Virus record (IMG/VR): IMGVR_UViG_3300025127_000041
Location: 1-58,157 of that record
Reading direction: 5' to 3' (one strand)
Length of the DNA: 58,157 bases
Origin: a virus
The notes below the pieces were generated by a model, which worked only from the letters and a program-made list of their open reading frames with translations, had not been told where the DNA came from and did no database searches. Every line of letters begins with the position of its first letter. The first letter of the stretch is position 1. Positions 8,025 to 43,410 of this stretch are shown piece by piece. A program made the translations under genes and the position numbers.

Positions 8025-8033
8025 ACTAAAGAT

Positions 8034-8705: not shown

Positions 8706-8715
8706 ATAAAATTAT

Positions 8716-8723
8716 TATCTTTG
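8716..8723 (+). promoter_or_regulatory. Promoter motif TATCTTTG inside the adhesin array
   Basis: TATCTTTG followed by TG, 16 bases before ATG 8740. It gives the last two adhesin-region genes (8740 and 9151) a start independent of the upstream copies. Confidence 0.6.
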
Positions 8724-8739
8724 TGTAAAACATAAAGAA

Positions 8740-13236: not shown

Positions 13237-13490
13237 AAATACTACAGGCTGCAAAGTTAGCTATAGATGAGTTAATCAAGGTTTTAAAGGAACCAATAAT
13301 AACCCATGCAGAAGATGATATAACTGCAGACAAAATGAAGAATGCAGCATCTGCTAAAAAATTAGCATTCGATGACGCCTTAGCTATGCTTCATAAGATC
13401 GAGGAAGAGGAGAGTGATAAGGAAGAGATAAAGGTTATCGATGCAGGCAAGAATGGTTTTGCTGAAGGAAGGGCAAAGAATGGAAAATAA
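13221..13490 (+). CDS. Possible small terminase subunit
   Basis: 89 residues, helical and acidic (MSKKVEILQAAKLAIDELIK; DITADKMKNAASAKKLAFDD; ALAMLHKIEEEESDKEE). Position directly before TerL is that of TerS, which recognises phage DNA for packaging, yet no helix-turn-helix is evident. It overlaps the genes on both sides (16 and 11 bases). The call rests on context. Confidence 0.5.
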   Translation: MSKKVEILQAAKLAIDELIKVLKEPIITHAEDDITADKMKNAASAKKLAFDDALAMLHKIEEEESDKEEIKVIDAGKNGFAEGRAKNGK

Positions 13491-15699
13491 TCTGTATAAA
13501 ATATCAAATGATTATATAAGTAAGAATGCCTTGATATCAAGAAACAGGGCAAAGAAATGGTTATATGGTTACGATGATAAGTACGATTTGGTTGTTATAT
13601 CTAAAGACGGAACAATAGGTGATATATATGAAATTAATGGACTTTATATAGCCTTACCTAAAGCTCCAAAAAATATAGACGTAAAAAACGATCGGTGGGT
13701 TGCTTCAGAATACCCAAAAGATTTGTCAAGGATAAGAACAATATTCGATTGGAACAGAAAGGATAATCTATTTAAATCAAAATATGTCGATTATATAGAG
13801 AGTGAGTTTGATAGAAGAGAAGAAGGACATTGGTTTAAAAACAATGGTAAACTCACATATATAACTGGATCTCACTATATGTACCTTCAATGGACAAAGA
13901 TTGATGTCGGTCGTCCTGACTTCAGAGAGTCCAATAGAATATTCTACATATTCTGGGAGGCATGCAAGGCAGATAAAAGGTCTTTTGGAATGTGCTACCT
14001 AAAAAACAGGCGTTCAGGCTTTTCTTTCATGGGGTCTGAGGAGTGTGCTAATATAGGAACCATATCAAGAGATTCAAGGATAGGTATACTGTCAAAGACT
14101 GGTAGTGATGCTAAGAAAATGTTTACGGACAAGGTCGTGCCAATTGTTAGAAATTATCCATTCTTTTTTAAACCTATACAGGACGGTATGGATAATCCTA
14201 AGACCGAACTTGCATTTAGGGTTCCTGCAAGTAAGATTACTCGCAAGAATATGGACGAGGAGAAAGACGATGAGATAGAGGGATTAGACACAACTATTGA
14301 CTGGAAGAACACCTCGGATAATAGTTATGACGGTGAAAAGCTATTACTACTTGTTCATGATGAAAGTGGTAAGTGGGAAAAACCAGAGAACATATTAAAT
14401 AATTGGCGTGTAACAAAGACATGTCTAAGGCTTGGTAGTAAGGTTATAGGTAAGTGTATGATGGGATCTACGTCAAACGCCCTTTCAAAGGGTGGTGGTA
14501 ATTTTAAGAAGTTGTACATGGATAGTGATCCTCGTGTAAGATCTGGCAACGGTCAAACAAGAAGTGGATTATATTCATTGTTCATACCTATGGAATGGAA
14601 TTATGAGGGATACATAGATAAGTATGGATGGCCTGTATTTGATGATCCTCAAAAACCAGTCGAGGGTGTTGATGGGGAAATGATATGTGATGGTGTGATA
14701 ACGTACTGGGATAATGAGGTTGCTGCACTAAAGTCAGATCCTGATGCATTAAACGAATATTACAGACAATTTCCTAGGACAGAGTCTCATGCATTCAGGG
14801 ATGAGTCTAGACAGTCAATATTTAACCTGACAAAGATATATCAGCAGATAGATTATAATGATAACCTGATTAAAGACAGAATACTTACGAGAGGATATTT
14901 TCATTGGAAGAACGGAGAGAAGGACACTACTGTCATATGGACTCCTGATAAAAAGGGTAGGTTTGTTGTATCATGGGTTCCTAGCTTTGAGCATAGAAAT
15001 AATATTATTAATCGTGGTGGCGTAAAATACCCAGGGAATGAGCATATGGGGTCATTTGGTTGTGACCCATATGACATATCTGGAGTTGTAGGGGGTAGTG
15101 GATCAAACGGTGCACTACACGGTTTAACAAAGTTTCACATGGAGGACGCACCCTCGAATGAGTTTTTTCTGGAGTACATAGCTAGGCCTAAGACGGCAGA
15201 GATATTCTTTGAAGACGTACTAATGGCGTGTGTGTTTTATGGAATGCCTATACTTGCAGAGAACAACAAGGCCAGGCTTTTATATCATTTTAAGAACAGG
15301 GGCTACAGAGGGTTTTCTATGAATAGACCAGACAAAAACAAAAAGAGGCTGTCTAAGACCGAGTTAGAGCTCGGTGGTATACCTAACACCAGTGAGGATG
15401 TGAAACAGGCTCACGCATCAGCTATAGAGTCCTACATAGAACAGTACGTTGGTTTTGATACAGAGGCTGTGTATAGAGACTCTGGAAATATTGGAAGTAT
15501 GTATTTTAATAGAACCCTAGAAGATTGGGCTAAGTTTGAGATAAATAATAGAACAAAATATGATGCATCTATAAGTTCAGGATTGGCAATTATGGCAAAT
15601 AAAAAGTATATCTCTGAGGTAGATAAAAAAGAATCAAAAATAAGTATTAAATTTGTAAGATATGATAATCGTGGAAATAGAAGCGAAATAATAAAATAA
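13480..15699 (+). CDS. terL: Terminase large subunit
   Basis: 739 residues from ATG 13480, which overlaps the previous stop by 11 bases; an in-frame ATG at 13441 would overlap by 50. The ATPase domain has a Walker-A-like LKNRRSGFSF (about 174-183, Gly and Ser kept but not the classical GKT) and Walker B LLLLVHDES (Asp294, Glu295). The C-terminal RNase-H-like nuclease has FGCDPYD (Asp about 529) and PILAENN. TerL pumps DNA into the prohead and cuts it. Length and motifs resemble the TerL of crAss-like and related Bacteroidota phages. Confidence 0.88.
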   Translation: MENNLYKISNDYISKNALISRNRAKKWLYGYDDKYDLVVISKDGTIGDIYEINGLYIALPKAPKNIDVKNDRWVASEYPKDLSRIRTIFDWNRKDNLFKSKYVDYIESEFDRREEGHWFKNNGKLTYITGSHYMYLQWTKIDVGRPDFRESNRIFYIFWEACKADKRSFGMCYLKNRRSGFSFMGSEECANIGTISRDSRIGILSKTGSDAKKMFTDKVVPIVRNYPFFFKPIQDGMDNPKTELAFRVPASKITRKNMDEEKDDEIEGLDTTIDWKNTSDNSYDGEKLLLLVHDESGKWEKPENILNNWRVTKTCLRLGSKVIGKCMMGSTSNALSKGGGNFKKLYMDSDPRVRSGNGQTRSGLYSLFIPMEWNYEGYIDKYGWPVFDDPQKPVEGVDGEMICDGVITYWDNEVAALKSDPDALNEYYRQFPRTESHAFRDESRQSIFNLTKIYQQIDYNDNLIKDRILTRGYFHWKNGEKDTTVIWTPDKKGRFVVSWVPSFEHRNNIINRGGVKYPGNEHMGSFGCDPYDISGVVGGSGSNGALHGLTKFHMEDAPSNEFFLEYIARPKTAEIFFEDVLMACVFYGMPILAENNKARLLYHFKNRGYRGFSMNRPDKNKKRLSKTELELGGIPNTSEDVKQAHASAIESYIEQYVGFDTEAVYRDSGNIGSMYFNRTLEDWAKFEINNRTKYDASISSGLAIMANKKYISEVDKKESKISIKFVRYDNRGNRSEIIK

Positions 15700-18128
15700 T
15701 GGAGAAACCTTCAGTAATAATTAACCAATTACCCTTCCCGAACCAGATGGCCTCTGACGAAGAAAAGTCTTCGGAGAAGTATGGACTAAGTGTAGCTAAA
15801 GCTATAGAGGGAGAGTGGTTCAAAAGAAAGGGAAGTTCCTGTAGGTTTTATGACCAGTGGGGAGAGTACCATAGACTAAGGCTTTATGCTAGAGGAGAGC
15901 AGCCTATACAGAAGTACAAGGATGAATTAGCTATCAATGGTGATATGTCTATGTTGAACCTAGACTGGAGCCCTATTCCTATAATACCCAAATTTGTAGA
16001 TATCGTTGTCAACGGTATGAATGATAGACTTTACAAAGTAAGGGCCGAAGCTCAAGACGTAATGTCTGCCGAAAAAAAGAATCAGTTTCAGGAGTCTATA
16101 GAGAAGGACATGGTAGCTAAGGATTTCTTAGATATGACAAAGAAGGAGTTCGGTATCAATGCATTTAACATGGATCCGAATGAATTACCTGCTGACGATC
16201 AGGAGCTGTCACTCTACATGCAGATAAATTACAAGCCTGGTATAGAGATAGCCGAAGAGGTAGCTATAGACACCATCTTTAAAATGAATAAGTTCGACGA
16301 GACCAAAAAGAACTTTGACTACGATGTAACAACCATAGGTGTGGGTGTGATGAAGCATGAGTTTCTTGTTAACGATGGTGTCAATGTAGAGTATGTCGAT
16401 CCAGCTAACTGGATACACAGCTATACAGAGAAGGAAGACTTCTCAGATTGCTACTACTTCGGGGAGGTTAAGCAGGTACACTATACTGAGTTATTAAAGA
16501 TAAATCCAGATCTTACAGATGAACAGCTGACTGAGATAAAAAATTACAGCTCTCAATACACCAACTACTTCCCTATAATTAGAAATTATCAAGATGATGC
16601 ATTCTTGAATGAGGTTGTTACACTTATGTACTTCAATTACAAAACTAGTAAAAGGTTTGTTTGGAAGAAAAAGATATTGGAGAATGGAGGAGAAAGAGTT
16701 ATAAGAAAGGGAGATACATTTAACCCACCAACAGGTGATGGTGTTCCTTTTGAAATAATTGAGGCACCAAAAGATGTCTGGTATGATGGAATACTTGTAT
16801 GCGGATCTAACATACTTCTTAAGTGGGAGATGGCTAGAAATATGATTAGACCTAAATCTGCATCTCAGAGTGCTATGCCAAATTATGTTGCACATGCTCC
16901 CAGATTATACAAAGGAAATGTAGAGTCTTTAGTTCGAAGGATGATCCCTTTTGCTGATCAAATTCAATTGACTCATCTAAAGTTACAGCAGGTAATGTCA
17001 AGGGTTGTTCCTGACGGTGTATTTATAGATGCTGACGGTATTAATGAGGTTGATTTAGGTACAGGTGCGGCATATAATCCTGAGGATGCATTGAAGCTAT
17101 ACTTTCAGACTGGTAGTGTTATTGGTAGAAGTTACACTCAAGAAGGTGATTTCAACAATGCACGAGTTCCAATACAGGAGTTAAACTCAAACAGTGGTCA
17201 GTCTAAAATGTCTGCACTTATTGCAAACTACAACCATTATTTGAATATGATCAGAGATGTTACAGGAATCAACTCAGCAAGAGATGGATCAAGTCCAAAT
17301 CCTGATGCATTGGTCGGTGTTCAAAAACTTGCAGCACTAAGCTCTAACACGGCAACAAGGCATATATTAAACGCAGGTCTTTATGCGACTAGAAAACTTG
17401 CTGAATGCATATCTCTTAGAGTTGCAGACATACTTGAGTATGCGGATTTTAGAGAAGAGTTTGCGATGCAGATAGGCAAGTATAATGTAGCTATACTTGA
17501 TGAGATAAAAGAGCTTTATTTATACGACTTTGGTATTTTTATAGAGGTGGCACCAGATGAAGAAGAGCAGCAGATGTTAGAGAACAACATAAATATTGCA
17601 CTTCAACAACAGACTATAGATCTTGAGGACGCTATTGATATTAGAAGCATGAACAATATAAAGTTGGCTAATGAAATGCTTAAGGTAAAGAGACGTAGAC
17701 GTATGGAGCAAAAACAAAAAGAGCTTCAAAAACAACAGCAAATGAAATTACAGTCAGATCTACAGCTACAGCAATCTGCAACTCAACAGAAGTCCCAACT
17801 GATACAGCTTGAAGCACAAGCAAAGGCTCAGGTTAAAGAGTCAGAGATGCAGTTTGAGATAGAGAAGATGAATGCAGAGGTAGAGGCGAAGAGATATCTG
17901 ATGGACCTAGAGTTCCAGTACAATATGCAGCTTAAAGGTATAGAGGCAGATTCATTGATGAATAGAGAAGATAAAAGAGAGAAGGCTAAATCAGAAAGAA
18001 TAAGTCAACAAAATACTGAGCAATCTAAATTAATAAATCAGAGAAAAAACAATCTACCGCCTCAAAATTTTGAAAGCACTGAGGATACATTAGATGGTTT
18101 TGACCTTCAGTCTTTTGGTCCTAAATAG
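15699..18128 (+). CDS. Portal protein
   Basis: 809 residues, starting in an overlap with the TerL stop. The N-terminal half has portal-type stretches (YDQWGEYHRLRLYARGEQPIQKY then a WSPIPIIPKFVDIVVNGM helix, and VEYVDPANWIHSYTEKEDFS). The C-terminal part from about 650 is a Gln/Lys/Glu-rich coiled coil (QKQKELQKQQQMKLQSDLQL) ending in a low-complexity tail. The portal forms the dodecameric DNA gate at the capsid vertex. Long Gln-rich tails are seen in portals of podoviruses of this group. Confidence 0.85.
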   Translation: MEKPSVIINQLPFPNQMASDEEKSSEKYGLSVAKAIEGEWFKRKGSSCRFYDQWGEYHRLRLYARGEQPIQKYKDELAINGDMSMLNLDWSPIPIIPKFVDIVVNGMNDRLYKVRAEAQDVMSAEKKNQFQESIEKDMVAKDFLDMTKKEFGINAFNMDPNELPADDQELSLYMQINYKPGIEIAEEVAIDTIFKMNKFDETKKNFDYDVTTIGVGVMKHEFLVNDGVNVEYVDPANWIHSYTEKEDFSDCYYFGEVKQVHYTELLKINPDLTDEQLTEIKNYSSQYTNYFPIIRNYQDDAFLNEVVTLMYFNYKTSKRFVWKKKILENGGERVIRKGDTFNPPTGDGVPFEIIEAPKDVWYDGILVCGSNILLKWEMARNMIRPKSASQSAMPNYVAHAPRLYKGNVESLVRRMIPFADQIQLTHLKLQQVMSRVVPDGVFIDADGINEVDLGTGAAYNPEDALKLYFQTGSVIGRSYTQEGDFNNARVPIQELNSNSGQSKMSALIANYNHYLNMIRDVTGINSARDGSSPNPDALVGVQKLAALSSNTATRHILNAGLYATRKLAECISLRVADILEYADFREEFAMQIGKYNVAILDEIKELYLYDFGIFIEVAPDEEEQQMLENNINIALQQQTIDLEDAIDIRSMNNIKLANEMLKVKRRRRMEQKQKELQKQQQMKLQSDLQLQQSATQQKSQLIQLEAQAKAQVKESEMQFEIEKMNAEVEAKRYLMDLEFQYNMQLKGIEADSLMNREDKREKAKSERISQQNTEQSKLINQRKNNLPPQNFESTEDTLDGFDLQSFGPK

Positions 18129-23599: not shown

Positions 23600-26500
23600 A
23601 TGGAGCTAAAGAAGACATTCCTAGCAGGAAAGATGAACAAAGATCTTGACCAAAGACTCCTGTCTGGTGGTCAGTACTCTGATGCATTGAATATAACTAT
23701 AGACACGTCTGAGGGATCTAATATTGGATCTGTTTCAAACTCACTAGGTAACACACTTAAGGGAGATATAACAACGATACTAAACTCATACACACCAGCG
23801 ATAGGATCTACAAATGCCAGGACTATAGGTGCAGTAGAGTACGAGGCATTGAACCTGATATACTGGTTTGTAGCGGCAGATGAGTATGACGCAATATTTG
23901 AGTACAACGAGATAGACAACACTATAGCACAGATTCTTATATGTACAAAGACTGGTGGTAATCCAAGTAAGCTTAACTTCAATCATCAGTACTTGATTAC
24001 AGGGGTTAATTATCTACCTGGGCACAAGGATGACGGTGCACTACTGTTTTGGACGGACAACTATAATCCACCCAGGAAGATAAACATAGCAAGGGCTAAA
24101 GGGTATTCGGTGGATGACAGTCGTATTGATAACGACATAGATGTAATAATTAGACCGCCATTACATGCACCAGCCATATACCCAAGCAAGGGGCTTACTC
24201 AATCAAATAACATGGATGAGAGGTTTCTTTACTTCTCGTACAGGTATAAATATGTGGATAACGAGTACAGTTCAATGTCACCATTTTCAGGTGTTGCATT
24301 TAAACCTGGTGAATATCAAGTAGATCCTCTTAACGGTGACAATGCCGCCATGGTTAATGAGTATAACGAGTGTAGGATTGTATTTGAAACTGGTAATCAG
24401 TTTGTTCAAGAGATACAACTACTTGCGTATGACACAAGAAGTCTTAATGTCAAAATAGTAAAGTCTATAGACAAAGAGGAGGAGCAGCTTAATGATAATG
24501 CTGTTGGTAGCTACACTTTTAACAATAACAAGATATACGCACCACTACCAGCCGATCAGGTTACTAGGCTGTTTGACAATGTACCTCTTCTGGCTAAGTC
24601 TCAAGAAATAATAGGTAACAGGTTGATATATGGTAACTACACTCAGTTTCAGGACGTTGATGAGGTTTTATTTAGCGTCACATATTCATCTACAGACACC
24701 GCTAAAAATACCCCAATAAGTACATTTAGGACAGATAGGGATTATGAGGTAGGAATTATATATGGTGATGACTACGGACGTATGACTACGGCATTAATAA
24801 GTAATGACAACTCGGTATATATACCGCCCTCTGTTTCTGACAAGGGTAATAGTCTAAAGGTAAGAATAGAAAACACAGCTCCTGTTTGGGCTACAAATTA
24901 TAGGTTGGTTGTAAAGCAATCGAAGAAGAATTACTACAACATCTTTCCATTATGGTACTATGTAGATGGTCCATTTAGATACTTTAGAATAAACGAGTTT
25001 GACAGAGATAAATTTAAGGTTGGTGATTATGTAATATTTAAATCATCAGGTACGGGACCGACGTATTCCAATAAAGAGTATAAGATACTTGAGTTTGAGT
25101 TAAAGCCAGATGGATTTGAAGATATATCACAAGCTGAGGCGGGGCTTTATTTTAAAATAAAGGTAGACTCACCCAATCTATTTACAGACAATGATAAGTT
25201 CCAGGCAATTTGGCAGCATACTGGGACAAGTCGACCTGTAAACCCCTCAATTTATGCCAACCCTGACGAAAAATATGCAAAACTACCTGTCGCTATATTT
25301 GGGAATAGTTATATTGACCCTCACACTCCATACTATGGGTCAAACGATGCCAACTCTATGTCGGTATCAGACGCTCAGTTTATTTCAGCGTCAGAATTAC
25401 CAGGCTCGTCAGCTACATGGGCAGCTGGTCACGCAGACATGAGGATCACTGTAGAGATAGATAGTGTGACAGCAACAGATGTTACATTTAAATACACAAA
25501 AGATATAGATGAAGGTACATATATAGAAGAAAACGTATCTATATCTAGTCCTCATTTTCTTATGAGTCCTACATCAACCTCTTCCTTACCGATCTGCAGA
25601 ATTGCCTTTAATCAAAACTCGGCATATAGCGTGGGTGATAAATGGAAGATTCTTTGCAGGAGTAATAAAAGCTTCGGTATAGCGGCTAATTATTTTCAAT
25701 CGCCTGGGGAAGACGCTGGTGCGGTTCCTACATTTTTAACTGATATATCAGATGAAGGTGATGGAAAATACGGTGGCGGTGCCGTTGGAATTGTAACTCG
25801 AAATTCTTCAGATGCAAATGTTAATAAAGAGATAGAGATACAGGCGTTAGCCAAAATTAAAATTCACATCCTACAAGATAGGAATCCGTCAGGTGAAAAT
25901 TCAGTTAATACACCTCAAGCTGAACAGGTTTTTGTATCAGATAGAAAGTATGATAACATAGAGGAGTGGTTTGTAGAATCTGGAGCATATAAGGATTTTG
26001 TTCAGTTTAACAGAAGCGGGGACGACGTAGGTGCAACAGGTGTATGTTTTAGAAGGGCTAGATATGCTGTAGATGGTTTTACTGGAGTAACTCAGCAAGA
26101 TGTTGAACTCACTCAGGAAAGAAGTGATTTTGTTGACATCACACGGTACTCATCTGCTTATCCGACACTTCCAACTGAGGACTATCCTGTCAGGATGATT
26201 ATAAAAGGATTTGGTAAAAGTAAACAATATGGTTTATTAGACCCTCAATTTGGTGAATCCGCTGCCAGAAATAGTATTAGAGTAAGATTTAGAATAGAGC
26301 AGTTAGACAATCCATTGGCTTGTGAGACGGAGCCTCTGGATCAGGATTTGGAGATATATCACGAGGTAACAGACTCTAAAGATATAGTAAACAACCTTCA
26401 TCAGGTAGGATGGAAGTATGCAGATTTTACACATGCCAACACTGTATTTCCAGACATTACATCTATAGTCGATAAGACAGTTCTAGGACCTGCCTATACA

Positions 26501-27769
26501 GGACAGGTATCGGTACCTAACCCTGCAAGCACAGACAGCCCTCACAATTTTTCAGTAGGTCAGAGCGTATATGTATATGGGGGTACATCAAACGTAACTG
26601 ATGGATATTACACTATAACATACATACCAAACCAGTACTCTATAGTTATAGACCTATCATGGCCTGGTAGTGGATCTCCAGATGTCAATCAACGTGTCTA
26701 TCATCAGGACTGGGAGGCAGATCAATCTACCACTCAGGCCGCTACCATTGAGATCAATCAGACGTCCGCACTCAACAGTCAGTTCAACGCATTTGCCTTT
26801 GGTAACGGTGTGGAGTCTGATAGAATAAAGGATGACTTTAACGCTGCCTCTATGAAGTTTAGCCCAAGGGTTACAAGTATTATAGAGGACTACGAGAACG
26901 AGCGTAAGGAGGCCTCATTGACATACAGCGGAGTGTTTAGGGGAGATACATCTATCAATAGATTGAACGAGTTTAATCTATCTCTGGCAAACTTTAAGGA
27001 TCTCGATAGAGAGTTCGGTCCCATTCAAAAGCTATATGCAAGAGACACAGATGTATTTGTTCTTCATCAGGACAAGATAAACAAGGTGTTGTATGGTAAG
27101 AATGTATTGTTCGATGCCGTAGGTGGCGGACAGGTCGCCTCTATACCTGAGGTATTAGGGAACGAGATGCCATATCCTGTTGAGTACGGGATAAGTAACA
27201 ACCCAGAGAGCTTTGCCACAAATGCTGGTAATATGTACTTCACAGACTCAAGACGTGGATGTGTTGTAGGGATAGAGAAAAATGCTGTAAATGAGATATC
27301 TTCACTAGGTATGACTGACTATTTTAGGGACGAGCTTAAGGACAATCCAGAGACGCAAAAGTTAGGGGCATATGATCCTTATTCTAACAGGTATACATTG
27401 TCTACAAATAATACTAGAAGATCATCACCATGTGAATTGACTATTCGACCGTCTACACTTAGTGTTGAGAATAATTCTGGCGGTGTTTCTATGTTTATGT
27501 TTAACATATCTACAGCTCTGTCATGGGCGATCACATTGGTTGACACAGGATCAGGTACATCTTGGGTTAGCTTATCAAGCACGTCAGGATATGGAGCTCA
27601 AAATATTTACGCAAATGTTGCAAATAACTTCTCAGGTTCCACAAGAACTATTAACTTTGTTGTAACATACTGCACCAGCGTGACACAGACATTTACTTTA
27701 ACGCAGGCCAAAGGTGGTAAGGGTACAGTTAGACCTATTATAATAAATAAACCAGAGGATAAAAAATGA
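23600..27769 (+). CDS. Large tail stabilisation-type protein with C-terminal BACON domain
   Basis: 1389 residues. The start MELKKTFLAGKMNKDLDQRL and SDALNITIDTSEGSNIGSVS matches the xFxxGxMNKDLDERL...DALNIxxxTSEGSxVGxVxN signature I know from stabilisation proteins of Bacteroidota and marine podoviruses. The body is beta-rich with propeller-like repeats. Residues about 1277-1372 form a BACON domain: CELTIRPSTLSVENNSGGVS, LSWAITL, GTSWVSLSSTSG, TRTINFVVTYC, TQTFTLTQAKG. BACON folds occur in Bacteroidota surface proteins and may hold the phage at the cell or in mucus. It ends in an ATGA overlap with the fibre gene. Confidence 0.8.
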   Translation: MELKKTFLAGKMNKDLDQRLLSGGQYSDALNITIDTSEGSNIGSVSNSLGNTLKGDITTILNSYTPAIGSTNARTIGAVEYEALNLIYWFVAADEYDAIFEYNEIDNTIAQILICTKTGGNPSKLNFNHQYLITGVNYLPGHKDDGALLFWTDNYNPPRKINIARAKGYSVDDSRIDNDIDVIIRPPLHAPAIYPSKGLTQSNNMDERFLYFSYRYKYVDNEYSSMSPFSGVAFKPGEYQVDPLNGDNAAMVNEYNECRIVFETGNQFVQEIQLLAYDTRSLNVKIVKSIDKEEEQLNDNAVGSYTFNNNKIYAPLPADQVTRLFDNVPLLAKSQEIIGNRLIYGNYTQFQDVDEVLFSVTYSSTDTAKNTPISTFRTDRDYEVGIIYGDDYGRMTTALISNDNSVYIPPSVSDKGNSLKVRIENTAPVWATNYRLVVKQSKKNYYNIFPLWYYVDGPFRYFRINEFDRDKFKVGDYVIFKSSGTGPTYSNKEYKILEFELKPDGFEDISQAEAGLYFKIKVDSPNLFTDNDKFQAIWQHTGTSRPVNPSIYANPDEKYAKLPVAIFGNSYIDPHTPYYGSNDANSMSVSDAQFISASELPGSSATWAAGHADMRITVEIDSVTATDVTFKYTKDIDEGTYIEENVSISSPHFLMSPTSTSSLPICRIAFNQNSAYSVGDKWKILCRSNKSFGIAANYFQSPGEDAGAVPTFLTDISDEGDGKYGGGAVGIVTRNSSDANVNKEIEIQALAKIKIHILQDRNPSGENSVNTPQAEQVFVSDRKYDNIEEWFVESGAYKDFVQFNRSGDDVGATGVCFRRARYAVDGFTGVTQQDVELTQERSDFVDITRYSSAYPTLPTEDYPVRMIIKGFGKSKQYGLLDPQFGESAARNSIRVRFRIEQLDNPLACETEPLDQDLEIYHEVTDSKDIVNNLHQVGWKYADFTHANTVFPDITSIVDKTVLGPAYTGQVSVPNPASTDSPHNFSVGQSVYVYGGTSNVTDGYYTITYIPNQYSIVIDLSWPGSGSPDVNQRVYHQDWEADQSTTQAATIEINQTSALNSQFNAFAFGNGVESDRIKDDFNAASMKFSPRVTSIIEDYENERKEASLTYSGVFRGDTSINRLNEFNLSLANFKDLDREFGPIQKLYARDTDVFVLHQDKINKVLYGKNVLFDAVGGGQVASIPEVLGNEMPYPVEYGISNNPESFATNAGNMYFTDSRRGCVVGIEKNAVNEISSLGMTDYFRDELKDNPETQKLGAYDPYSNRYTLSTNNTRRSSPCELTIRPSTLSVENNSGGVSMFMFNISTALSWAITLVDTGSGTSWVSLSSTSGYGAQNIYANVANNFSGSTRTINFVVTYCTSVTQTFTLTQAKGGKGTVRPIIINKPEDKK

Positions 27770-31241: not shown

Positions 31242-32006
31242 ATGGCAACTATAACGTACTCCACATGGACGAAAGGATGGACATCCTTCTGGTCCTATGT
31301 GCCCGACTGGATGATCGGTCTGAACAGCAGCTTCTACACCTTCACAGAGGGTAAGCTGTACAAGCACAACGACAACACCACAAGAAATAACTTCTATGGC
31401 GTTCAATACCCTTCAACGGTGACCACGGTATTTAATGATGAGCCGATGCAGATGAAGGTCTTTAAGACGATATCAGAGGATTCAAACAAGCCATGGAAGG
31501 CGACCATAGATACAGAGCTAAACACCGCAGAGATGGATGTAACGTACTTTGTACAAAAGGAGGAAGAGTGGTTCGCATACATAAGAAGAGTGGACAACAC
31601 GATAGACCTTAAGGCTGTATCTACACAGGGTATTGGTAACGCTACAAGTATAGACAGCTCTACTGCAAGTGCGGTAGTGGTAACATTTGGATTTGATTTA
31701 AACAAGTCTATAAGTATAGGCGATGAGCTATACAAGATGGGTGTCACGGGTACCAACCCTCCAATATCTGACGGGACGATGGTTCTTATAGGGACTATAA
31801 CTGGCCTTACAGCTACAACTATAACTGTAAACACAACAGCTGGAGTTATTCCTTTGACTACTGATTTTTTGATAGGCGTAAAGAACAGCCAGGTCGAGTC
31901 ATATGGAAGCAGAGGTTTCTTTATGTCTGTAAAGCTTGAGAACAACGACACCACTCAGGTGGAAATGTTTTCTATAGCCAGTTCAGTATTCAAAAGTTTT
32001 CCGTAA
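31242..32006 (+). CDS. Conserved structural protein, tail region
   Basis: 254 residues. WTKGWTSFWSYVPDWMIGLN followed by SSFYTFTEGKLYKHN and FYGVQYPSTVTTVFNDEP is a signature I recall from phages of flavobacteria and from crAss-like phages, where the protein counts among virion genes. Beta-rich throughout, no membrane segment. Probably a tail or fibre-base protein. Confidence 0.7.
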   Translation: MATITYSTWTKGWTSFWSYVPDWMIGLNSSFYTFTEGKLYKHNDNTTRNNFYGVQYPSTVTTVFNDEPMQMKVFKTISEDSNKPWKATIDTELNTAEMDVTYFVQKEEEWFAYIRRVDNTIDLKAVSTQGIGNATSIDSSTASAVVVTFGFDLNKSISIGDELYKMGVTGTNPPISDGTMVLIGTITGLTATTITVNTTAGVIPLTTDFLIGVKNSQVESYGSRGFFMSVKLENNDTTQVEMFSIASSVFKSFP

Positions 32007-34620: not shown

Positions 34621-37600
34621 ATGGCGGAAGATAATCCAATAGAAGGCTTAGATACCACTCAATCGGCATTTCAGCCAGTTGTTGATACAATGAATCAGGA
34701 TATCCTTGAGGATCTTAGTAGAACTACCACTACGACTACGATGTATATATCGGGTGACACATCTCAGTTTAACAAGCCAGAAGAACCAGAGCAATTAGAA
34801 GATCCTTATGGTATACGTGAGGCTGTAAATATATTTAGGGTTAGACAGTCTGATGCTGGAGAGTCGCCATCTGTTGGAGATATAAAAAAATTATTTCCAG
34901 AATCTAGTGCACAAGAAAGGCTACAGATAGAGTCCGCTTACCCAGATCTTTTTAAGGAGGATGCATCTTATAATAAGGTTTTAGATACAGAGTATCAGAA
35001 GGGTATCGAAAAAGGAATGTCTAGCTCACAAATACTAGATGACCTCGTAAAAAAACAAACAGGAACAAAGATAGGATTGATTGCTAGAAGGCCAGACCTG
35101 TTTAACGAGCAGACAATAAAAGAAGAAGAAACCAAGTTACGATTAGACACAAAGGAATTTCAGGAAAAGGAAAACAAAATAAAATCTTTAAAGGACGAGC
35201 GTGAGAACGCAAGTTTCAATAGAAAAAGAGGCATAGATATAGAGCTGGCTAAGTTGGAGGGTGATATAGAGATCTTAAGCAAGATGGCTAAAGATACTGA
35301 CTATAAGAAAGATAAGGCACTCTTTGATCTGGGTAGAAAAATTAGCGTGGATACACAAGACTTGTCAGAGGCAGACCTTGAGTCTATATCTAAAAAACTA
35401 GATCCAAACTATGTTGTACCCATATTAAACAACCCACAAGAGAAGAGTGTGTTTGAGATGACCAACACACTTGTGGGATCAACAGGCGGTCTAGAGATAG
35501 CTGATGATGACTTTATAGAGGTATACAAGAAGGGCAACTATGATCCTGAAAAGCATTCTCAGTACGACGAAAAACTATCTCAGGTAATAAATGGGTTTGT
35601 ATCTGAGGAGCTTCCTGTAGATATACATCAATCGTTCTATGATAGAAACAATATTTCTAAGAATGATTTAGTTCTAAGAAATAAGATGATAATCAGAAAT
35701 GTTCCAGACTTTAATCAGGGTAAGATATACTCGATAGAAGAGATGGAAGAGCTTGAAAAAAGGGCTGAGGAGAACTTAATAAATAATTATGGAGATATTG
35801 AGTTCGATGAATTAAAGATTATACTTGGTGACGACATAACACCTAAAGACGTATACAACAGAAGCCTTAGGTCCAGTATGTATACTAATTCAAAATTAAA
35901 CGATGCGATTGTTGTTGATGATGAAGAAGCAACACTAGAAAATTTACAGACACTGTTCCCTGAGTCGACAAGTTTGTTTAGGTTTGACACCAGAACAGAT
36001 GGAAAGAACTCTATCATTATAAGGACATTTGTAGCTGGAGAAGAGTTAAATTCAACTGAGATAAATTTAGATGAAGAAAACGAACCACTTAGAAAGATAA
36101 GAGACTTCATGTCTGGAGCAATGCCGCCTGCAAACGTGCAGAGAAAGATTATGGAGGTCGCTGATGGACAGGGTGAATTTATAAAAGAAGACGGAAGTAT
36201 AGATAAAGTTAAATTATCACTATACACTACAAAATATCCAGAAATATTTGGAGATGTTGACGCATATACAGCTGATGATTTATTAACTACCTGGGAGAAG
36301 TCTCCGTTTATGATTGACAAAGCTGACATAAGAAGAAACATAAGATACCAGGAATCACTTGTTAATAATTACACTGCAGAAGGAAGAAAGGATGTAGATC
36401 TAGAACAACTTCAATTATTAGATACACAGGCTGCATTGGCTGATCAGATTCATCAAGAAAAATTAATACAGAAAGGGGGCGGTTTAGCTGGTCTTAGCGT
36501 GTACAGTTACCTAGAACCTGTTGCCAGAATTGTAGAATTTTTTGATGATCAGGCAACAAATGTTCAGGGACTTTTTGGTTATGTGGATAGTTTAAGTGAT
36601 GAAGAGTATAAAAGTTTGAGAGCTAAAGGCCTTAGTGATGAAGACATAATAAGAACTGAAAAGGCCTATATAAAGGAAAAGACAGAGGCTAGTCTCAACA
36701 GAATAGTAAGTGGATTTAGCGGGGAGACACAGCAGAGTATAGCGGAGCAAGGTTTTCTTGCTGAAGCTTTTGCTACCGCAATACAATCTTTAACCACAAT
36801 GGCTGTAGGTCTAGGTGCAAAAATACCTACAATAACTGCGTTTGGAATTAGATCTCAGGTATCATTAGAGAATGAGCTTAAAGATACCGATCTGTCTGAC
36901 ACTGAAAAGTTTGCAATAACATTACCTATGGCTGTACTTGAAGGTGTTCTTGAGGAATGGGGGTTACAAAAAATATTTAAACCTGGGGTTACTGCTTCTA
37001 AAAAACTAATACTATCTAAAGCATTACCTAAGATAAAAAAAGGAGCAACTCCTGCACAGATAAAAAAATCTATACAAAGAGCTATTGAAGAGCTTTCAGG
37101 TGGGACGATAGAAAAGATAGGTAGGGCTGGTATTTATGAAGGTATGACAGAGTTTGGACAGACGGCTTCAGAGATAAATCTAAAGACACTTGCAAACAGT
37201 ATAAGCGAAAAAGATTTATTTAAGGACGTCCCTAACATGTTTACTCCTGAAGGTTTTATAGATGGAGTAAATCAAATAGGTAAAGCTACCGCTATGGGAT
37301 TTGTTGTGGGTTCTGGAATAAACACAGCCTCACAAGCAAAAAGTCTAGCTAATGGATTTAAAAAGTCAGACAACGATGTATCTATGGATGAAGCCTTTGA
37401 TATGATCACAAGCAATGATAGACGTGAAATATTTTTTGACAGGCTAGACCTAAGAGTACTGGCTGGGGAAATAACAGATGTTGATGCTAGAACCATAAAA
37501 GAAAATATTGATAAGGCTTACCCTTTAATGATGCAGATACCTGCTACATTTAGTAGTAATCAAAAAGAAGAAGCATACAACTTACTACTTGAAAAGCAGG

Positions 37601-40600
37601 AGCTAGAACAAGAGGTTAAAGATAAAAACAAAAACCTTGTGGTCGAACAGACCGAAAGAATAAATGAGATAGATAGACAGTTAGAATTAATAAGTAAAGG
37701 AGAATTAAAAGATGCCGTTCAAGAGTCAGAAACAAAGGAGGAAGTGTTACCAGATGAACAGCCCGAAATGGGACTGCAAGATGTGGGACAAGGAGACACC
37801 CAAGAACAAGAAGCTACCGAAGTACAGCAAAAAGAATTAGTAGATGATGATGTAGTCACGGAAGAGTATGTCAAAGAGTTAGAGGATATAAAGCAAAGTG
37901 ATCCTGAACAATACTGGAGTGTAGACAGTGTAAGCTTGGAAGATGCCAAGGAAGGTACGGTTATATCGGTAGAGGGAGGAAAGGGTATTGTCGGTCCTGA
38001 CGGTGACATAAAAGGTGTATTCAAATCTAAAGATTCTAAAGCTGAAAAGGTGGCAGATAAGATCTTGGAGGAAGCTGTTAAAAATGGGGGTACTAAGTTA
38101 GATAACTTTGACAACTATCTGACTCGTATATATAAACGAAATGGATTTAGGGTTGCAAGTAGAACACCCTTTAATGAGGAGTTTGCTCCTGATGGATGGA
38201 ACAAAGAAAAACATGGAACTCCCGACGTGGTTGCGATGGTTTACGATCCTGAATCTAAGTTGGATATAGAGGAAAAAACATTTGATAATCCTGAAACTGG
38301 GTATGATGAAATGATCGCATACAGAGATTCATTTATTGAAGCTCCCGCAGCAGAGCAGGTTACTGAAGATGTGGTAGAAGACATAACTCCTGAGTTTGCA
38401 GAAAATATAAAAAACATAGAGAAGCAGGCGGAAAACGCTAGAAGGGCTATATCTAAAGTATTGCCAGGTGTAGAGATAATCACACACTCTACAGAGGAAT
38501 CATACAGGAAGGCCACTGGTGAGACGGACAGTAAGAAGCAGGCCACTCGTGGTGAGTATAACCCTAATACAAAGACTATACACATCAATCAATCTAAAGC
38601 TAACAACAGAACGGTAGGTCACGAGGTATTTCATGCCGTGCTTTTAGAGAAGGTTAAAACAGATAACGCAGCAAAGGATCTTACAGATCGTATGATAAAG
38701 TCTGTTTCTAAAAACCTTGAGGGCATGCCTGAGGTCAAGGAGGCCTTGGATGAATTTGCTGCCAACTATGACCAGAACATACAGAACGAGGAAAAGCTCG
38801 CAGAGCTGGTAGGTATACTGGCAGGTAACTATGCACAGATGAACAAACCTAGTCAAAGTCTGATTAAGAGGTTTCTAGATCGACTGGCCAAGATGTTTGG
38901 ACTGAAGCCATTCACTGACGGTGAGGTGGTCGATGTTCTAAATGCAATAGCTGGTAAGGTTGCACTCGGTGAGGAGATCAGTGATGTGGACCTAAAGGTT
39001 ATTCCTTCACCAACCGATTCAAAAGGAAATTTAAAAACGCCATCAAAAAAATCACAGAATAATCTTAAGAAGAGAAAACAAAATATAATAGATGGAGTTA
39101 AGGATCAAGTTGTATCTGGAGAAATTGTTAGCACATCTTTACCAAATAAAGATGATGTTCATTCTAGTAAAGAATATGTAGTAGGTATATCTTCACTTGA
39201 AAAAATAGCTAATACAGATAAAAGAGCTAAGGATCAATATATTAAGATTGCTAAAGAGGCAGCTTCATACGGAATATCTAAAACTAAAGATGTAAATAAT
39301 TTTGAAGATGCTAAGAAAGTTATATCTGAGTTTAAGCAAGTTGTGAAGTCAAATTTAAAATGGCTTCATGACTCAGTAGATAAAGATGTTAGAGATATAT
39401 CTAAGTTATGGTATGACGGAGCTAATAAAATATCTAATGATTTAGCAAATGAATATGGGTATACAACAGAGCAAGTTTCTGGAGTAATGGCTGTACTAAG
39501 TCCTCAGATGGACTGGTTTAGAAATTTATCTTTAGGAGAAAGAGTTATTGATATATATAAAAATAATCAAGACTCATTGTTTGATGATAAAATGATAGAA
39601 TTCGTTGAAACAAAAACAACTGGTACTGGTAAAAATAAAAAACCTCTTTTTAAAAATAAAGAAGAAATAATATCAAGAGTAAAAAATAAAAAATTATCCG
39701 AACTAAATGCTAAAGATCAATCATATTTTATAAGAGTTTATGATGAAGTATATAATTCTAGAAACTATAATAACATAACTCCTAACGGAGAAATAAATGG
39801 ACTTGTTAGAACTAAAAGTGGTAACCCTGGTAAGGTTGGCTGGGGAGATTTTTCTACTATTGAAAAAGCTATATCTATACTGAATGATGGATCAGTAAAA
39901 AACATTTCTACAAATTTAGGTAATCAACATAAAGTAAGAAATTTCTTTAATAACATATCAAATCCTAATGATAAAAATGCAGTTACTATTGATACTCATG
40001 CTGTTGCAGCTGCATTATTAAAACCTTTATCAGGTAAATCAAAACAAGTAACTTATAATTTTGGAGGTGCATCAGCTGTATCTACTGGTATGACTGGAAC
40101 ATATCCCGTCTATGCAGATGCTTATAGAGAATTAGCTAATGAATTAGGTATTCTTCCTAGAGAAGTTCAAAGTATAACATGGGAAGCGGGTAGAGGTTTG
40201 TTTAAGGCTGTATTTAAATCTAACAAAAGCAATGAAGAAAAAATAAATAATGTTTGGAATCAATATGAGTCTGGAAGTATATCATTAAAACAAGCTCAAT
40301 CAAAAATAGACAAGTTAGCAGGAGGTATAAGCACGCCTGTATGGTATGAATATTTAGCTGATGAGAATGTTGAATCACTAGATAAAAACTCAGCAGCTTT
40401 AGATCAAGCGGCTTTAGACGAAGAGGTATCTATAGATGATCAGGTCACAACCCCATCCAAGCGTAAGCAGAAGGACGAAGGTCCTGTAGAGCCAAGGATT
40501 GACATCAGAAATCTGAAGAAGAAGTCTGATAAGAAGATCAAGGAGATAAACAAGGGTAAGGGCCCGATACTTAGAAGACTAAGAAGATCACTGTTCGACA

Positions 40601-43410
40601 GACAGAACGACATAAAGAGAGTCATAAAGGACTTTGTACCTAACCCTAAAAAGGTAAGTAAGATCATAAACAGGATAGTAACAAAGGCTGGTGCGTCTGG
40701 ATACGCAAACGAACTATTCAAACAACAGGACAAAAAAATATTTGGAGGTTTAGAAGCAGACCAGATAGAAAACCTTGAACTCATAATATACGCAAGACGT
40801 ATAGTTGCAATCAATGAAAACAGACGTGAAAGAGGGATGAATCCATACAAAGGTATGGATGGACTTAATGAACAGGATGCTCTTCAAAACTTAGAAAAGT
40901 TTGAGAAGGATCTAGGCAAAAAAGAGTTTGATGATTTATCAAAAAGAGCAGACGAATACTTTGAGGCATTCAAGAATAATCTTAAGATGCTTAGAGATTC
41001 TGGACGTATAACAGAAGAGACTTATGAAAACCTTAAGGATGTGGAGTACTCTCCTATAAAGACTCTAAAGTATATCATACCTCAGGACACAATGACTGAC
41101 GAGGATATAAATAATGCTGTGTCTACACTTGGTGTAAATAAGAAGGATATAATGAAGCTTTCAGACATGAACGAGAATGAAATACTATTCGATGCAAGAT
41201 TCCTTCTTATGATGAATACTAATATAGTTGTAAGAAGATCATTTGAAAATAAAATGCTGAATGAGTTTGCTCAAGGATATGAATCAATAGACAAGGAAGG
41301 CAAGAAAGCTCTATCAGACTTTATAATTGAGGGTCCTGTAAAGAAGGTACCTCCTGGTTTCAGAAAGGTTGAATACTTTCAAGATGGTGTTAAGAATGAG
41401 ATGGTTATGAGGGAGGATTATGCTAGGCAGCTTTTAGACATCAAGAATCAAAATAATTTTCTAAAAGGTTTTGGAACGATAAGTGGTTCAAATATACTTA
41501 GGTTCTTTGCGACAGGTGGTAACCCATTGTTTATAATCGGTAACACTGCAGTTGACTTCGCAAACATAGCATTCTTTTCAGACGTATATTCATCCATAAA
41601 ACCACTTGCAACAGTTCAGTTGGCATATGATTTTGTAAAAAACTTTTTAAGAAAAACTGGAAGTACAAATAATTACAACAAAATTAAGATGGAGTTTATG
41701 GAGCACGGAGGTGCTATGGACTACCTATCTACAGACGGTCTTAGAATGGTTCAGGAAATGAGGCTAAAAAATAGAATACTTAACAAATTTCAAAAAGGTT
41801 TAGCCGCATATGCTAGATTTATGTCATACCTTGGAGAGACTGGTGAGATGTCATTCAGATTAGCTGTATATGAAAGGGTTAAGAATGCAGAGATTAAGAA
41901 GTTCGAGAAAAAAAATGATAGATCTCCAAATCAGCAGGAGATGGATGACATAATGTTTGAGGCAGCTGCACAGTCCAGAGAGACTATTGACTTCTCACAG
42001 GGAGGTACCTGGGTTAAGCAGATGGATCAGGCACTGCCATACTTTAACGCTGCAATGCAAGGTCTTAGAAGACCGTTGGATTTTGCAAGAAAAAACCCTG
42101 TGGGGTTCACGTCAAATGTGATTCAATATGCGGTAATGGCTGCAGGTATGACTGCGACTTCATTAGGAACACTTTTAAGATCAATTGGAGACGATGAGGA
42201 GGAAAAGAAAAAGTTGCAGGATATATTGGATTCAATATCTGAATATGAAAAGGCTAACTACCATATAATATTTACAGGAAATAAGGATAAGGATGGTAAC
42301 TATCAATATGTAAGAATTAAAAAACTTCCACTAATATCAATACTTGGAACAGCTACGGAGCAGTACACAACAAAGTATCTTTTGAAGTCTCAAGGCATTG
42401 ATTATGAAATAGATGAAAGTTCAATTAAAAAGGCTATTGAGCTGTCTGCACCATTAGATATAGTTGGACCTATTACAGGAGACGAGTCTGTGGGTCAGGC
42501 AATTGGAGGTATTGTAAAAAGAAACCCACTTGCTGCAGCTTGGCTTACATACACATACAACGAGGATACATTTACAGGTGAGAAGGTGTTTTATGAACCT
42601 AGAGACAAAAAAATCAAGCCATATGCAGAGGGTCTTTACGATGAAAGAGTTAATGATATATACAAGATAGTTGCACCTGCACTTGATATGTCTCCAAAAA
42701 GAGCCCAGGCGGCTGTAGAAAAACTTATAACAAGTGAAAGCACGAATCCTAGTATATCTATATTTTACGCTCTTACAAACGGATTATTTGATACAGAAGC
42801 AGATGCCTTCAAAGAAAACGCTGATACATTTAATAACGGCATGGGGCATTTTCTTGATGTGGTCAGTAAAAAAATGGTTAGGCATACCAATCCAAACCTA
42901 TTGAGATATAAAGATAAGGATAAAACAGATGAGCTTGAGGAAAGAATAGACACAGATAAATACCTTCAAGATATAAAAATAAAAAAAGAAATAGATAAAA
43001 ATATAAATACAAAAATATTACTAGAAGGAAAATCCAGAACGGATAAATATAAAACAGAATATAAAAAAGTGGATGATTTGCTTGATCGTTACAAACTTAC
43101 AACAAATGAAAAGAAAAAATATCAATCTTATGCTAAGACAAAAGATCTAAAAGGTAAAGAGGTATTTAAAGAGCTTAGAGATATTATTTATGAAAAATCT
43201 CCAGAGATGATAGCGGCAAGATTGTATAAAAGGTATGGTAATAATCTAGATGAGGATGAGAGAAAAGAATTAAGTAAAGCATTTAAGATCTCAAAAGTAA
43301 ATGATATTATATACAAAAAAGGTTATCAGTTATTTTACAAAAAGTATTACCTAAATAAGTCTCAAAAAGAGATAGATAAGTTTGAAGAATCTTTCGGTAA
43401 GATACGATAA
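34621..43410 (+). CDS. Giant polyvalent virion protein with metallopeptidase motif
   Basis: 2929 residues. From N to C: charged helical region (1-640); hydrophobic segment (about 710-740, LAEAFATAIQSLTTMAVGLG); acidic Glu-rich linker (about 1025-1075); a polyvalent-protein block at about 1095-1240 (IYKRNGFRVASRTPFNEEF, PDVVAMVYDP); zinc-peptidase motif HEVFH at 1334-1338; an AT-rich insert at about 1460-1935 with VMAVLSPQMDW and VTIDTHAVAAAL; then an LPD38-like tail (about 2290-2530) with ATGGNPLFIIGNTAVDFANI and ETIDFSQGG. Such giants are probably ejected with the DNA and act in the host early. Largest gene, 15 % of the genome. Confidence 0.82.
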   Translation: MAEDNPIEGLDTTQSAFQPVVDTMNQDILEDLSRTTTTTTMYISGDTSQFNKPEEPEQLEDPYGIREAVNIFRVRQSDAGESPSVGDIKKLFPESSAQERLQIESAYPDLFKEDASYNKVLDTEYQKGIEKGMSSSQILDDLVKKQTGTKIGLIARRPDLFNEQTIKEEETKLRLDTKEFQEKENKIKSLKDERENASFNRKRGIDIELAKLEGDIEILSKMAKDTDYKKDKALFDLGRKISVDTQDLSEADLESISKKLDPNYVVPILNNPQEKSVFEMTNTLVGSTGGLEIADDDFIEVYKKGNYDPEKHSQYDEKLSQVINGFVSEELPVDIHQSFYDRNNISKNDLVLRNKMIIRNVPDFNQGKIYSIEEMEELEKRAEENLINNYGDIEFDELKIILGDDITPKDVYNRSLRSSMYTNSKLNDAIVVDDEEATLENLQTLFPESTSLFRFDTRTDGKNSIIIRTFVAGEELNSTEINLDEENEPLRKIRDFMSGAMPPANVQRKIMEVADGQGEFIKEDGSIDKVKLSLYTTKYPEIFGDVDAYTADDLLTTWEKSPFMIDKADIRRNIRYQESLVNNYTAEGRKDVDLEQLQLLDTQAALADQIHQEKLIQKGGGLAGLSVYSYLEPVARIVEFFDDQATNVQGLFGYVDSLSDEEYKSLRAKGLSDEDIIRTEKAYIKEKTEASLNRIVSGFSGETQQSIAEQGFLAEAFATAIQSLTTMAVGLGAKIPTITAFGIRSQVSLENELKDTDLSDTEKFAITLPMAVLEGVLEEWGLQKIFKPGVTASKKLILSKALPKIKKGATPAQIKKSIQRAIEELSGGTIEKIGRAGIYEGMTEFGQTASEINLKTLANSISEKDLFKDVPNMFTPEGFIDGVNQIGKATAMGFVVGSGINTASQAKSLANGFKKSDNDVSMDEAFDMITSNDRREIFFDRLDLRVLAGEITDVDARTIKENIDKAYPLMMQIPATFSSNQKEEAYNLLLEKQELEQEVKDKNKNLVVEQTERINEIDRQLELISKGELKDAVQESETKEEVLPDEQPEMGLQDVGQGDTQEQEATEVQQKELVDDDVVTEEYVKELEDIKQSDPEQYWSVDSVSLEDAKEGTVISVEGGKGIVGPDGDIKGVFKSKDSKAEKVADKILEEAVKNGGTKLDNFDNYLTRIYKRNGFRVASRTPFNEEFAPDGWNKEKHGTPDVVAMVYDPESKLDIEEKTFDNPETGYDEMIAYRDSFIEAPAAEQVTEDVVEDITPEFAENIKNIEKQAENARRAISKVLPGVEIITHSTEESYRKATGETDSKKQATRGEYNPNTKTIHINQSKANNRTVGHEVFHAVLLEKVKTDNAAKDLTDRMIKSVSKNLEGMPEVKEALDEFAANYDQNIQNEEKLAELVGILAGNYAQMNKPSQSLIKRFLDRLAKMFGLKPFTDGEVVDVLNAIAGKVALGEEISDVDLKVIPSPTDSKGNLKTPSKKSQNNLKKRKQNIIDGVKDQVVSGEIVSTSLPNKDDVHSSKEYVVGISSLEKIANTDKRAKDQYIKIAKEAASYGISKTKDVNNFEDAKKVISEFKQVVKSNLKWLHDSVDKDVRDISKLWYDGANKISNDLANEYGYTTEQVSGVMAVLSPQMDWFRNLSLGERVIDIYKNNQDSLFDDKMIEFVETKTTGTGKNKKPLFKNKEEIISRVKNKKLSELNAKDQSYFIRVYDEVYNSRNYNNITPNGEINGLVRTKSGNPGKVGWGDFSTIEKAISILNDGSVKNISTNLGNQHKVRNFFNNISNPNDKNAVTIDTHAVAAALLKPLSGKSKQVTYNFGGASAVSTGMTGTYPVYADAYRELANELGILPREVQSITWEAGRGLFKAVFKSNKSNEEKINNVWNQYESGSISLKQAQSKIDKLAGGISTPVWYEYLADENVESLDKNSAALDQAALDEEVSIDDQVTTPSKRKQKDEGPVEPRIDIRNLKKKSDKKIKEINKGKGPILRRLRRSLFDRQNDIKRVIKDFVPNPKKVSKIINRIVTKAGASGYANELFKQQDKKIFGGLEADQIENLELIIYARRIVAINENRRERGMNPYKGMDGLNEQDALQNLEKFEKDLGKKEFDDLSKRADEYFEAFKNNLKMLRDSGRITEETYENLKDVEYSPIKTLKYIIPQDTMTDEDINNAVSTLGVNKKDIMKLSDMNENEILFDARFLLMMNTNIVVRRSFENKMLNEFAQGYESIDKEGKKALSDFIIEGPVKKVPPGFRKVEYFQDGVKNEMVMREDYARQLLDIKNQNNFLKGFGTISGSNILRFFATGGNPLFIIGNTAVDFANIAFFSDVYSSIKPLATVQLAYDFVKNFLRKTGSTNNYNKIKMEFMEHGGAMDYLSTDGLRMVQEMRLKNRILNKFQKGLAAYARFMSYLGETGEMSFRLAVYERVKNAEIKKFEKKNDRSPNQQEMDDIMFEAAAQSRETIDFSQGGTWVKQMDQALPYFNAAMQGLRRPLDFARKNPVGFTSNVIQYAVMAAGMTATSLGTLLRSIGDDEEEKKKLQDILDSISEYEKANYHIIFTGNKDKDGNYQYVRIKKLPLISILGTATEQYTTKYLLKSQGIDYEIDESSIKKAIELSAPLDIVGPITGDESVGQAIGGIVKRNPLAAAWLTYTYNEDTFTGEKVFYEPRDKKIKPYAEGLYDERVNDIYKIVAPALDMSPKRAQAAVEKLITSESTNPSISIFYALTNGLFDTEADAFKENADTFNNGMGHFLDVVSKKMVRHTNPNLLRYKDKDKTDELEERIDTDKYLQDIKIKKEIDKNINTKILLEGKSRTDKYKTEYKKVDDLLDRYKLTTNEKKKYQSYAKTKDLKGKEVFKELRDIIYEKSPEMIAARLYKRYGNNLDEDERKELSKAFKISKVNDIIYKKGYQLFYKKYYLNKSQKEIDKFEESFGKIR
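39000..40435 (+). other. AT-rich inserted domain inside the giant protein gene
   Basis: GC content drops abruptly: 14 of 60 bases in 39601-39660, against 29 of 60 in 38761-38820 and 22 of 60 in 40501-40560. Codons become A/T-ending (AAA, AAT, TTA, TCT). The encoded stretch (residues about 1460-1935) has motifs of its own (AVLSPQMDWFRN, KVRNFFNNI, VTIDTHAVAAAL). The boundaries are sharp and in frame, pointing to recent acquisition of a whole domain. Confidence 0.75.

Follow-up and report, generated by a model that had tools for sequence, protein, structure and literature searches.

An exchangeable cassette with a predicted HhH-GPD glycosylase fold in a giant polyvalent-type phage protein

Phages and conjugative elements encode polyvalent proteins (Iyer et al. 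2017), very long, multi-domain polypeptides that are presumed to be delivered with the DNA and that carry a zincin metallopeptidase, for which a role in processing has been proposed (PMC5512222). The sections of that paper used here include ART-PolyVal, LPD23 and GNAT among the modules of such proteins, and contain neither the words 'glycosylase', 'linker' or 'crass' nor a joint motif. The cargo proteins gp45-gp50 of the phi-crAss001 virion follow the muzzle protein gp44 in number; they are very large, are encoded after the muzzle gene and, in the part of the account used here, include RNA polymerase-associated proteins (PMC10172136). Shuffling of fragments between otherwise different phage proteins has been described as domain mosaicism, in a text whose sections used here make no mention of 'polyvalent', 'ejection' or 'linker' (PMC10684548). 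The giant phage protein described below resembles polyvalent proteins in length, in its multiple domains, in its zincin and in its presumed delivery, and its relatives carry the same ART-PolyVal, LPD23 and GNAT modules. It is likened to the phi-crAss001 cargo by size and gene order. In contrast to polymorphic toxins, where the toxin domain is C-terminal, the exchanged cassette is internal and is followed by a conserved body of ~950 residues, which sets the protein apart from that class.

The window, that is, the whole stretch of 58,157 bases that was analysed (IMG/VR virus record IMGVR_UViG_3300025127_000041), contains the giant gene at 34621-43410, which encodes 2929 residues and, like all window features given here, lies on the plus strand. 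It is the last gene of the structural operon, downstream of the terminase large subunit (phrog_6681) and portal (phrog_6547) genes (13441-18128) and of two crAss muzzle-type genes, one for a muzzle-like protein (23600-27769, PF25731) and one for a protein with the muzzle C-terminal domain (31242-32006, PF25729). Both muzzle matches exceed the Pfam cut-off and suggest that the phage belongs to Crassvirales or their near relatives. The giant itself unites several disparate domains in one polypeptide: a zincin-type metallopeptidase module (residues 1251-1459, 38371-38997, with HEVFH at 38620-38634), a DUF7178 domain of predicted HhH-GPD fold and a conserved C-terminal body (40561-43410). With a profile built from five giants, the zincin module is found in 21 of the 25 giants whose 5' side is intact. 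The C-terminal body is related to LPD38 through its homologues, since three of seven virus-record bodies score 25.5-28.7 bits with the LPD38 profile (cut-off 27); the body of the window has no LPD38 match, and none of the domain families named for polyvalent proteins was found in the window's own giant. Residues ~1984-2717 are homologous to gp120/gp121 of Cellulophaga phage phi46:3, of which gp120, lying under the match, is annotated 'virion structural protein', and to a protein of Maribacter phage Panino. Judged from its sequence, the giant is a polyvalent-type protein, and gene order and homology together suggest that it is most likely packaged and ejected with the DNA.

Within the giant gene, GC content falls from 48.3% (38761-38820) to 23.3% (39601-39660) and returns to 36.7% (40501-40560), exactly as reported by the initial annotation, which had described an AT-rich insertion without loss of frame. 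Indeed, no stop codon interrupts 34621-43410, so that the single 2929-residue reading frame stays open across the AT-rich stretch, ruling out a frame error or a distinct gene as the cause of the low GC. In a scan of the whole 58,157-base window with 1435-nucleotide windows at steps of 50 bases, 39001-40435 is the GC minimum (29.9%, against a mean of 38.9% and a standard deviation of 3.1). The corresponding module has 28.7-30.3% GC and 12.1-14.1% GC3 in all five carriers measured (the window, L006, L115, L111 and L110; L labels denote the loci and records compared), whatever flanks it, while the C-terminal bodies of the same five have 26.7-47.3% GC3 and other cargo modules have GC values of their own, up to 45.7%. 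Thus, the AT dip is a property of the cassette. A second AT-rich dip, of 24-26% GC, is present at ~42900-43350, where the gene encodes the C-terminal tail of the giant, and low GC per se is therefore not unique to 39001-40435.

The AT-rich stretch is an exchangeable cassette that is replaced in close relatives and shared horizontally with distant ones. At the DNA level, blastn delimits a block common to distant relatives at 38974-40471, which is 94.9% identical in L006 and 92.5% identical, up to 40424, in L013 (the same contig as L115). The right break with L006 is exact, the sequences being near-identical through CGTAAGCAG (codons CGT AAG CAG, 40462-40470; residues 1948-1950, Arg-Lys-Gln) and unrelated beyond. 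The left break falls where the zincin tail ends, within ~38974-39000. It precedes the left joint tripeptide, again RKQ (residues 1485-1487, AGA AAA CAA, 39073-39081), by ~25 residues and is thus not located at RKQ here. A wider, second IMG/VR search with the C-terminal part of the giant returned 35 loci. The domain is absent from L001-L005, the closest long loci, which are 83-86% identical over ~residues 1944-2929: L004 and L005, uninterrupted across the site, carry other sequence in the cassette's place, as does L001, which starts in the zincin tail, whereas L002 and L003 are cut, yet have other sequence directly before the C-terminal body. Conversely, the domain is 95% and 93% identical in L006 and L013, whose C-terminal bodies are 74.0% and 47.2% identical to that of the window. 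Third-position identity to the window, counted where a conserved residue has four-fold degenerate codons, is 88.2% (L006) and 85.6% (L115) in the cassette, far above the 44.5% and 42.2% of the C-terminal body, a mark of recent transfer.

Cargo also differs between records that are otherwise nearly the same, such as L110, L111, L121 and L124 (C-terminal body DNA ~97% identical) or L115 and L116 (97.3%); such carriers form a natural set for studying the exchange of injected effectors. By Pfam, DUF7178 is present in six of the 31 giant-bearing records counted (of 36, with L106, L109, L122, L130 and L131 left out), several of which are cut, so that its absence from those is no proof. On a tree of the C-terminal bodies, also from 31 of the 36 records (L106, L109, L130, L131 and L133 dropped), the six carriers need six minimal changes among 24 rows. 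The initial annotation had suspected recent exchangeable cargo and had proposed an alignment of homologues; the comparison bears this out, in that the domain is replaced at the same place, is missing from many relatives and retains high synonymous identity to distant ones. The cargo zones of the relatives hold ART-PolyVal, LPD23 and GNAT modules together with several modules that have no Pfam match; ART-PolyVal occupies the same slot in five of the 31 records, and LPD23 is found in a module of L105. We note that a second, peptidase-like module with an HE[IV]QH motif recurs at differing positions of the array in L104, L105, L006, L108, L116 (where it occurs twice) and L133, and carries LPD23 in the one copy scanned.

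The initial annotation described the stretch as vaguely recalling DUF7178 or a helix-hairpin-helix DNA glycosylase. The former assignment holds: the cassette matches Pfam DUF7178 (PF23802) with 94.1 bits (cut-off 27, E 1.4e-26 for the whole protein) in two halves, each over the cut-off, covering profile positions 21-84 (39361-39552) and 95-188 (39856-40188) and separated by an insert of ~100 residues (39553-39855). The glycosylase resemblance holds as a fold and fails as a match to the HhH-GPD sequence profile (PF00730), which has no hit in the giant at E<=1. An AlphaFold2 model from 51 sequences has a pLDDT of 88.9, and a model of the core (334 residues, 60 sequences) reaches 94.6. When this core was compared by VIA-align with 228 Foldseek candidates, the first 49 of 50 rows were HhH-GPD-fold proteins, with Z from 10.4 to 3.8, and the next, unrelated, row had a Z of 2.7. 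The best row is the Ogg of M. jannaschii (3knt, Z 10.4, rmsd 3.7, 181 aligned), followed by 3fhg (9.9), 3n0u (9.8), AGOG (7.6), DUF2419 (7.4), OGG1 (~7), AlkA (6.1), a MutY homologue (5.7) and PUGT of phage PaMx11 (3.8); the 49 rows also include 1xg7, by title a 'conserved hypothetical protein'. DUF2419, PUGT and 1xg7 we take to have the HhH-GPD fold. With the longer model, these three kinds and glycosylases fill the first 11 VIA-align rows. The Foldseek search that had been suggested thus supplied candidates that VIA-align superposes as a glycosylase fold, although its own scores against the PDB are weak (best for the core 1xqo, E 0.057; nothing relevant on top for the longer model). From these models, the DUF7178 cassette is predicted to have the HhH-GPD (DNA N-glycosylase) fold, which provides the family with a predicted fold.

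At the sequence level, a PDB search with the DUF7178 profile gave no match, and one with the single domain gave one chance-level row (E 0.76). Profile comparison by hhalign found no link to Nth/MutY-type proteins (probability 0.2%), represented by proteins from 11 genomes (a motif filter yielded a protein at 10 of 30 loci), or to a single Ogg2-type protein (probability 0.1%, E 0.45), with which a single local alignment covers a C-terminal stretch at 32% identity over 34 columns. In its predicted fold (Z 9.8-10.4) and its G...K...D-x-H order, the cassette resembles the Ogg-type 8-oxoguanine DNA glycosylase/lyases (3knt, 3fhg, 3n0u), but it differs from them in lacking significant sequence similarity and in carrying the insert.

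HhH-GPD glycosylases make general use of a Lys and an Asp in catalysis. In DUF7178 the order G...K...(V/I)DTH is comparable to that of Nth and Ogg2 sequences, with a spacing of 20 between Lys1771 (39931-39933) and Asp1791 (first residue of Asp-Thr-His, 39991-39999), against 18-19 in the Nth and Ogg2 sequences compared; at the Ogg Lys position, the 3knt sequence has Gln and that of 3fhf has Lys. Lys1771 is invariant in both the 51 and the 60 aligned sequences, the Asp-Thr-His triplet is invariant as well (Asp1791 in the 60), and so, in the 60, are the Ser, Pro, Asp and Trp of LSPQMDW (residues 1626-1632, 39496-39516). This motif and IDTH (from residue 1790) are present, in keeping with the motifs named by the initial annotation. 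Based on motif order, we infer that Lys1771 and Asp1791 are equivalent to the glycosylase Lys and Asp, and fold and invariance together make them the candidate catalytic pair, which can be tested by experiment. Given an HhH-GPD fold with an invariant Lys and Asp, the cassette probably breaks an N-glycosidic bond.

DUF7178 occurs in at least 594 IMG/VR stretches, and a literature search on the family returned no paper. Stand-alone phage members such as gp86 of Mycobacterium phage Pocahontas (annotated 'glycosylase') belong to the same Pfam family; unlike them, the domain of the window lies inside a 2929-residue protein and is split by the insert. Roseobacter phage CRP-738 encodes an 835-residue DUF7178 protein, gp40, between its portal and coat protein genes (L018 7690-10197), a SAR116 genome holds a DUF7178 stretch (L150 8001-9016) with stop codons in the given frame, and an otherwise different giant of 3838 residues from a Prosthecobacter MAG (L147) combines LPD38, ART-PolyVal and DUF7178. 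Maribacter phage Panino has both a relative of the C-terminal body (L016 6328-11817), annotated 'tRNA methyltransferase' and with no Pfam match found, and a stand-alone DUF7178 gene elsewhere (L020 1861-2478).

Cassettes of the giants meet at a recurring tripeptide that is kept at the protein level. Neither this joint motif nor the crAss-type setting had been noticed in the initial annotation. In the cargo zone, defined as the 900 residues before the C-terminal body and surveyed in 30 of 36 giants after near-duplicates were dropped, RKQ is the top-ranked tripeptide, with 29 distinct contexts against 3.6 expected (p 10^-16.3; next tripeptide p 10^-3.5). Elsewhere in the giants it is found twice in the C-terminal body (3.8 expected) and nine times in the N-terminal part (4.4 expected), and it is absent from the other window ORFs scanned (12,633 residues). 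The modules between joints have recurring lengths, of 446, 453, 460 and 460 residues for DUF7178, but 577 in L110, and of 212-213 in four instances of another family. The 51 RKQ copies of the zones use 12 codon spellings, which differ even within one gene, and thus it is the peptide that is kept. In the clade of L110 the joints read KRSQ, a motif picked after inspection that occurs five times in the zones of four records (two of the five copies being homologous) and nowhere else in those records; L108 and L110 have no RKQ to the left of the module. RKQ does not mark DUF7178 giants in general, since the large DUF7178 ORFs of other phages (29 of 35 after removal of redundancy, with L025, of the window's own kind, excluded beforehand) contain 13 copies against 12.2 expected. 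Likewise, R[FY][SQ] as an equivalent joint upstream of DUF7178 elsewhere is not significant (4 of 56 rows, p 0.075; 61 of 80 sequences were non-redundant, of which four lacked the anchor and one was too short); three of these four rows, like L025 with its RSQ, have the motif 103-105 residues ahead of the anchor.

We suggest, with a probability of roughly 0.68, that the AT-rich stretch is best explained as an exchangeable HhH-GPD-fold N-glycosidase cassette of a polyvalent-type protein that is ejected with the phage DNA. The phage would package the giant and eject it into the cell with its DNA, where the DUF7178 cassette would break the N-glycosidic bond of a base in DNA, a nucleotide or RNA early in infection. 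The exchange slot lies behind the zincin peptidase and ahead of the conserved C-terminal body; there phages swap the whole cassette for ADP-ribosyltransferase, acetyltransferase, second-peptidase or unknown modules, and the joints (RKQ or KRSQ) may be cut by the zincin or by another protease. Polyvalent-type cassette proteins are a known kind, and the literature searched yielded no description of a glycosylase-fold cargo or a joint motif; for the RKQ joints, the search covered polyvalent-protein modules, linkers and crAss virions. A glycosylase-fold enzyme would thereby be added to the set of polyvalent cargo.

Were the pattern merely the ordinary, old mosaicism of polyvalent proteins, the AT dip would mark nothing recent, and the low GC3 of the domain in all carriers measured indeed means that low GC does not date its arrival; we consider this very improbable, because third-position identity to two distant phages is twice that of the C-terminal body and cargo differs between nearly identical records. 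A protein of glycosylase fold need not be a DNA glycosylase, and the cassette could instead be an enzyme acting on a small substrate or RNA, as DUF2419 does on queuosine monophosphate, or a base-modifying transferase akin to gp46/PUGT of phage PaMx11. Both of these proteins are in the same VIA-align list (Z 7.4 and 3.8), true DNA glycosylases have no sequence-level link to the domain, and the ~100-residue insert lies inside it; yet the top three matches are all Ogg-type 8-oxoguanine glycosylases, and the window proteins scanned with Pfam include no hypermodification genes, so we give this alternative somewhat less than an even chance. That the cassette is an effector proper, toxin-like or anti-defence, excising bases from the nucleic acid of the host or of rival phages, is in keeping with the rapid turnover of the slot, with the predicted role of polyvalent proteins as conflict effectors in the part of that work used here (PMC5512222) and with the use of DNA glycosylases by bacteria as antiviral defence, as described in the part of the report drawn upon (PMC11078745). 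We nevertheless regard it as rather unlikely, as 38 of 67 complete DUF7178 ORFs in IMG/VR loci have just 472-833 residues; the family therefore extends beyond giant cargo proteins, and it may act in the DNA metabolism of the phage itself. The cassette may thus function in attack, in counter-defence or in the phage's own nucleic-acid metabolism.

For the joints, we infer from the sequences that the giant is possibly cut at RKQ, by the zincin or by another protease, which would turn the 2017 proposal of zincin processing into a sequence-level prediction. Among the 25 giants with an intact 5' side, RKQ or KRSQ is present in the zone of 19 of the 21 that have the zincin (the zones of the remaining two contain RRQ or RQQ) and of none of the four that lack it; on the tree, however, this co-occurrence amounts to one independent contrast, and the association is therefore a lead only. 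Alternatively, the joints may be inert linkers, or stretches of DNA homology through which cassettes recombine, without any protease. Unrelated modules end in a common stretch of ~24-30 bp that runs to the end of CGTAAGCAG (in the window, L002 and L003, and in L103, L104 and L105), which could help recombination, and in L003 a 164-residue module is flanked by two copies of a ~40-base block around RKQ (residues ~295 and ~462 of the giant fragment), such as recombination between joints could leave. Both observations, together with the single contrast, favour this alternative; the 12 codon spellings, the replacement of RKQ by KRSQ in one clade and the distribution of joints with the zincin speak against it, and we see it as a plausible reading that falls a little short of even odds. 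More tentative still is the extension of the cleavage idea, in which the giant would be a cargo polyprotein whose plug-in effectors are bounded by lineage-specific cleavage signals (RKQ, KRSQ) that the zincin of the giant itself would read, and are freed as separate enzymes after entry. If this were so, effectors would be exchangeable between distant phages without a change of carrier.

Elsewhere in the window, we note a GroEL-type chaperonin gene (2366-3925, phrog_5725, E 2.3e-129), as well as three clustered ORFs with Laminin_G_3/ConA-lectin domains (7275-9897), which are followed by an amidase (11138-11824).
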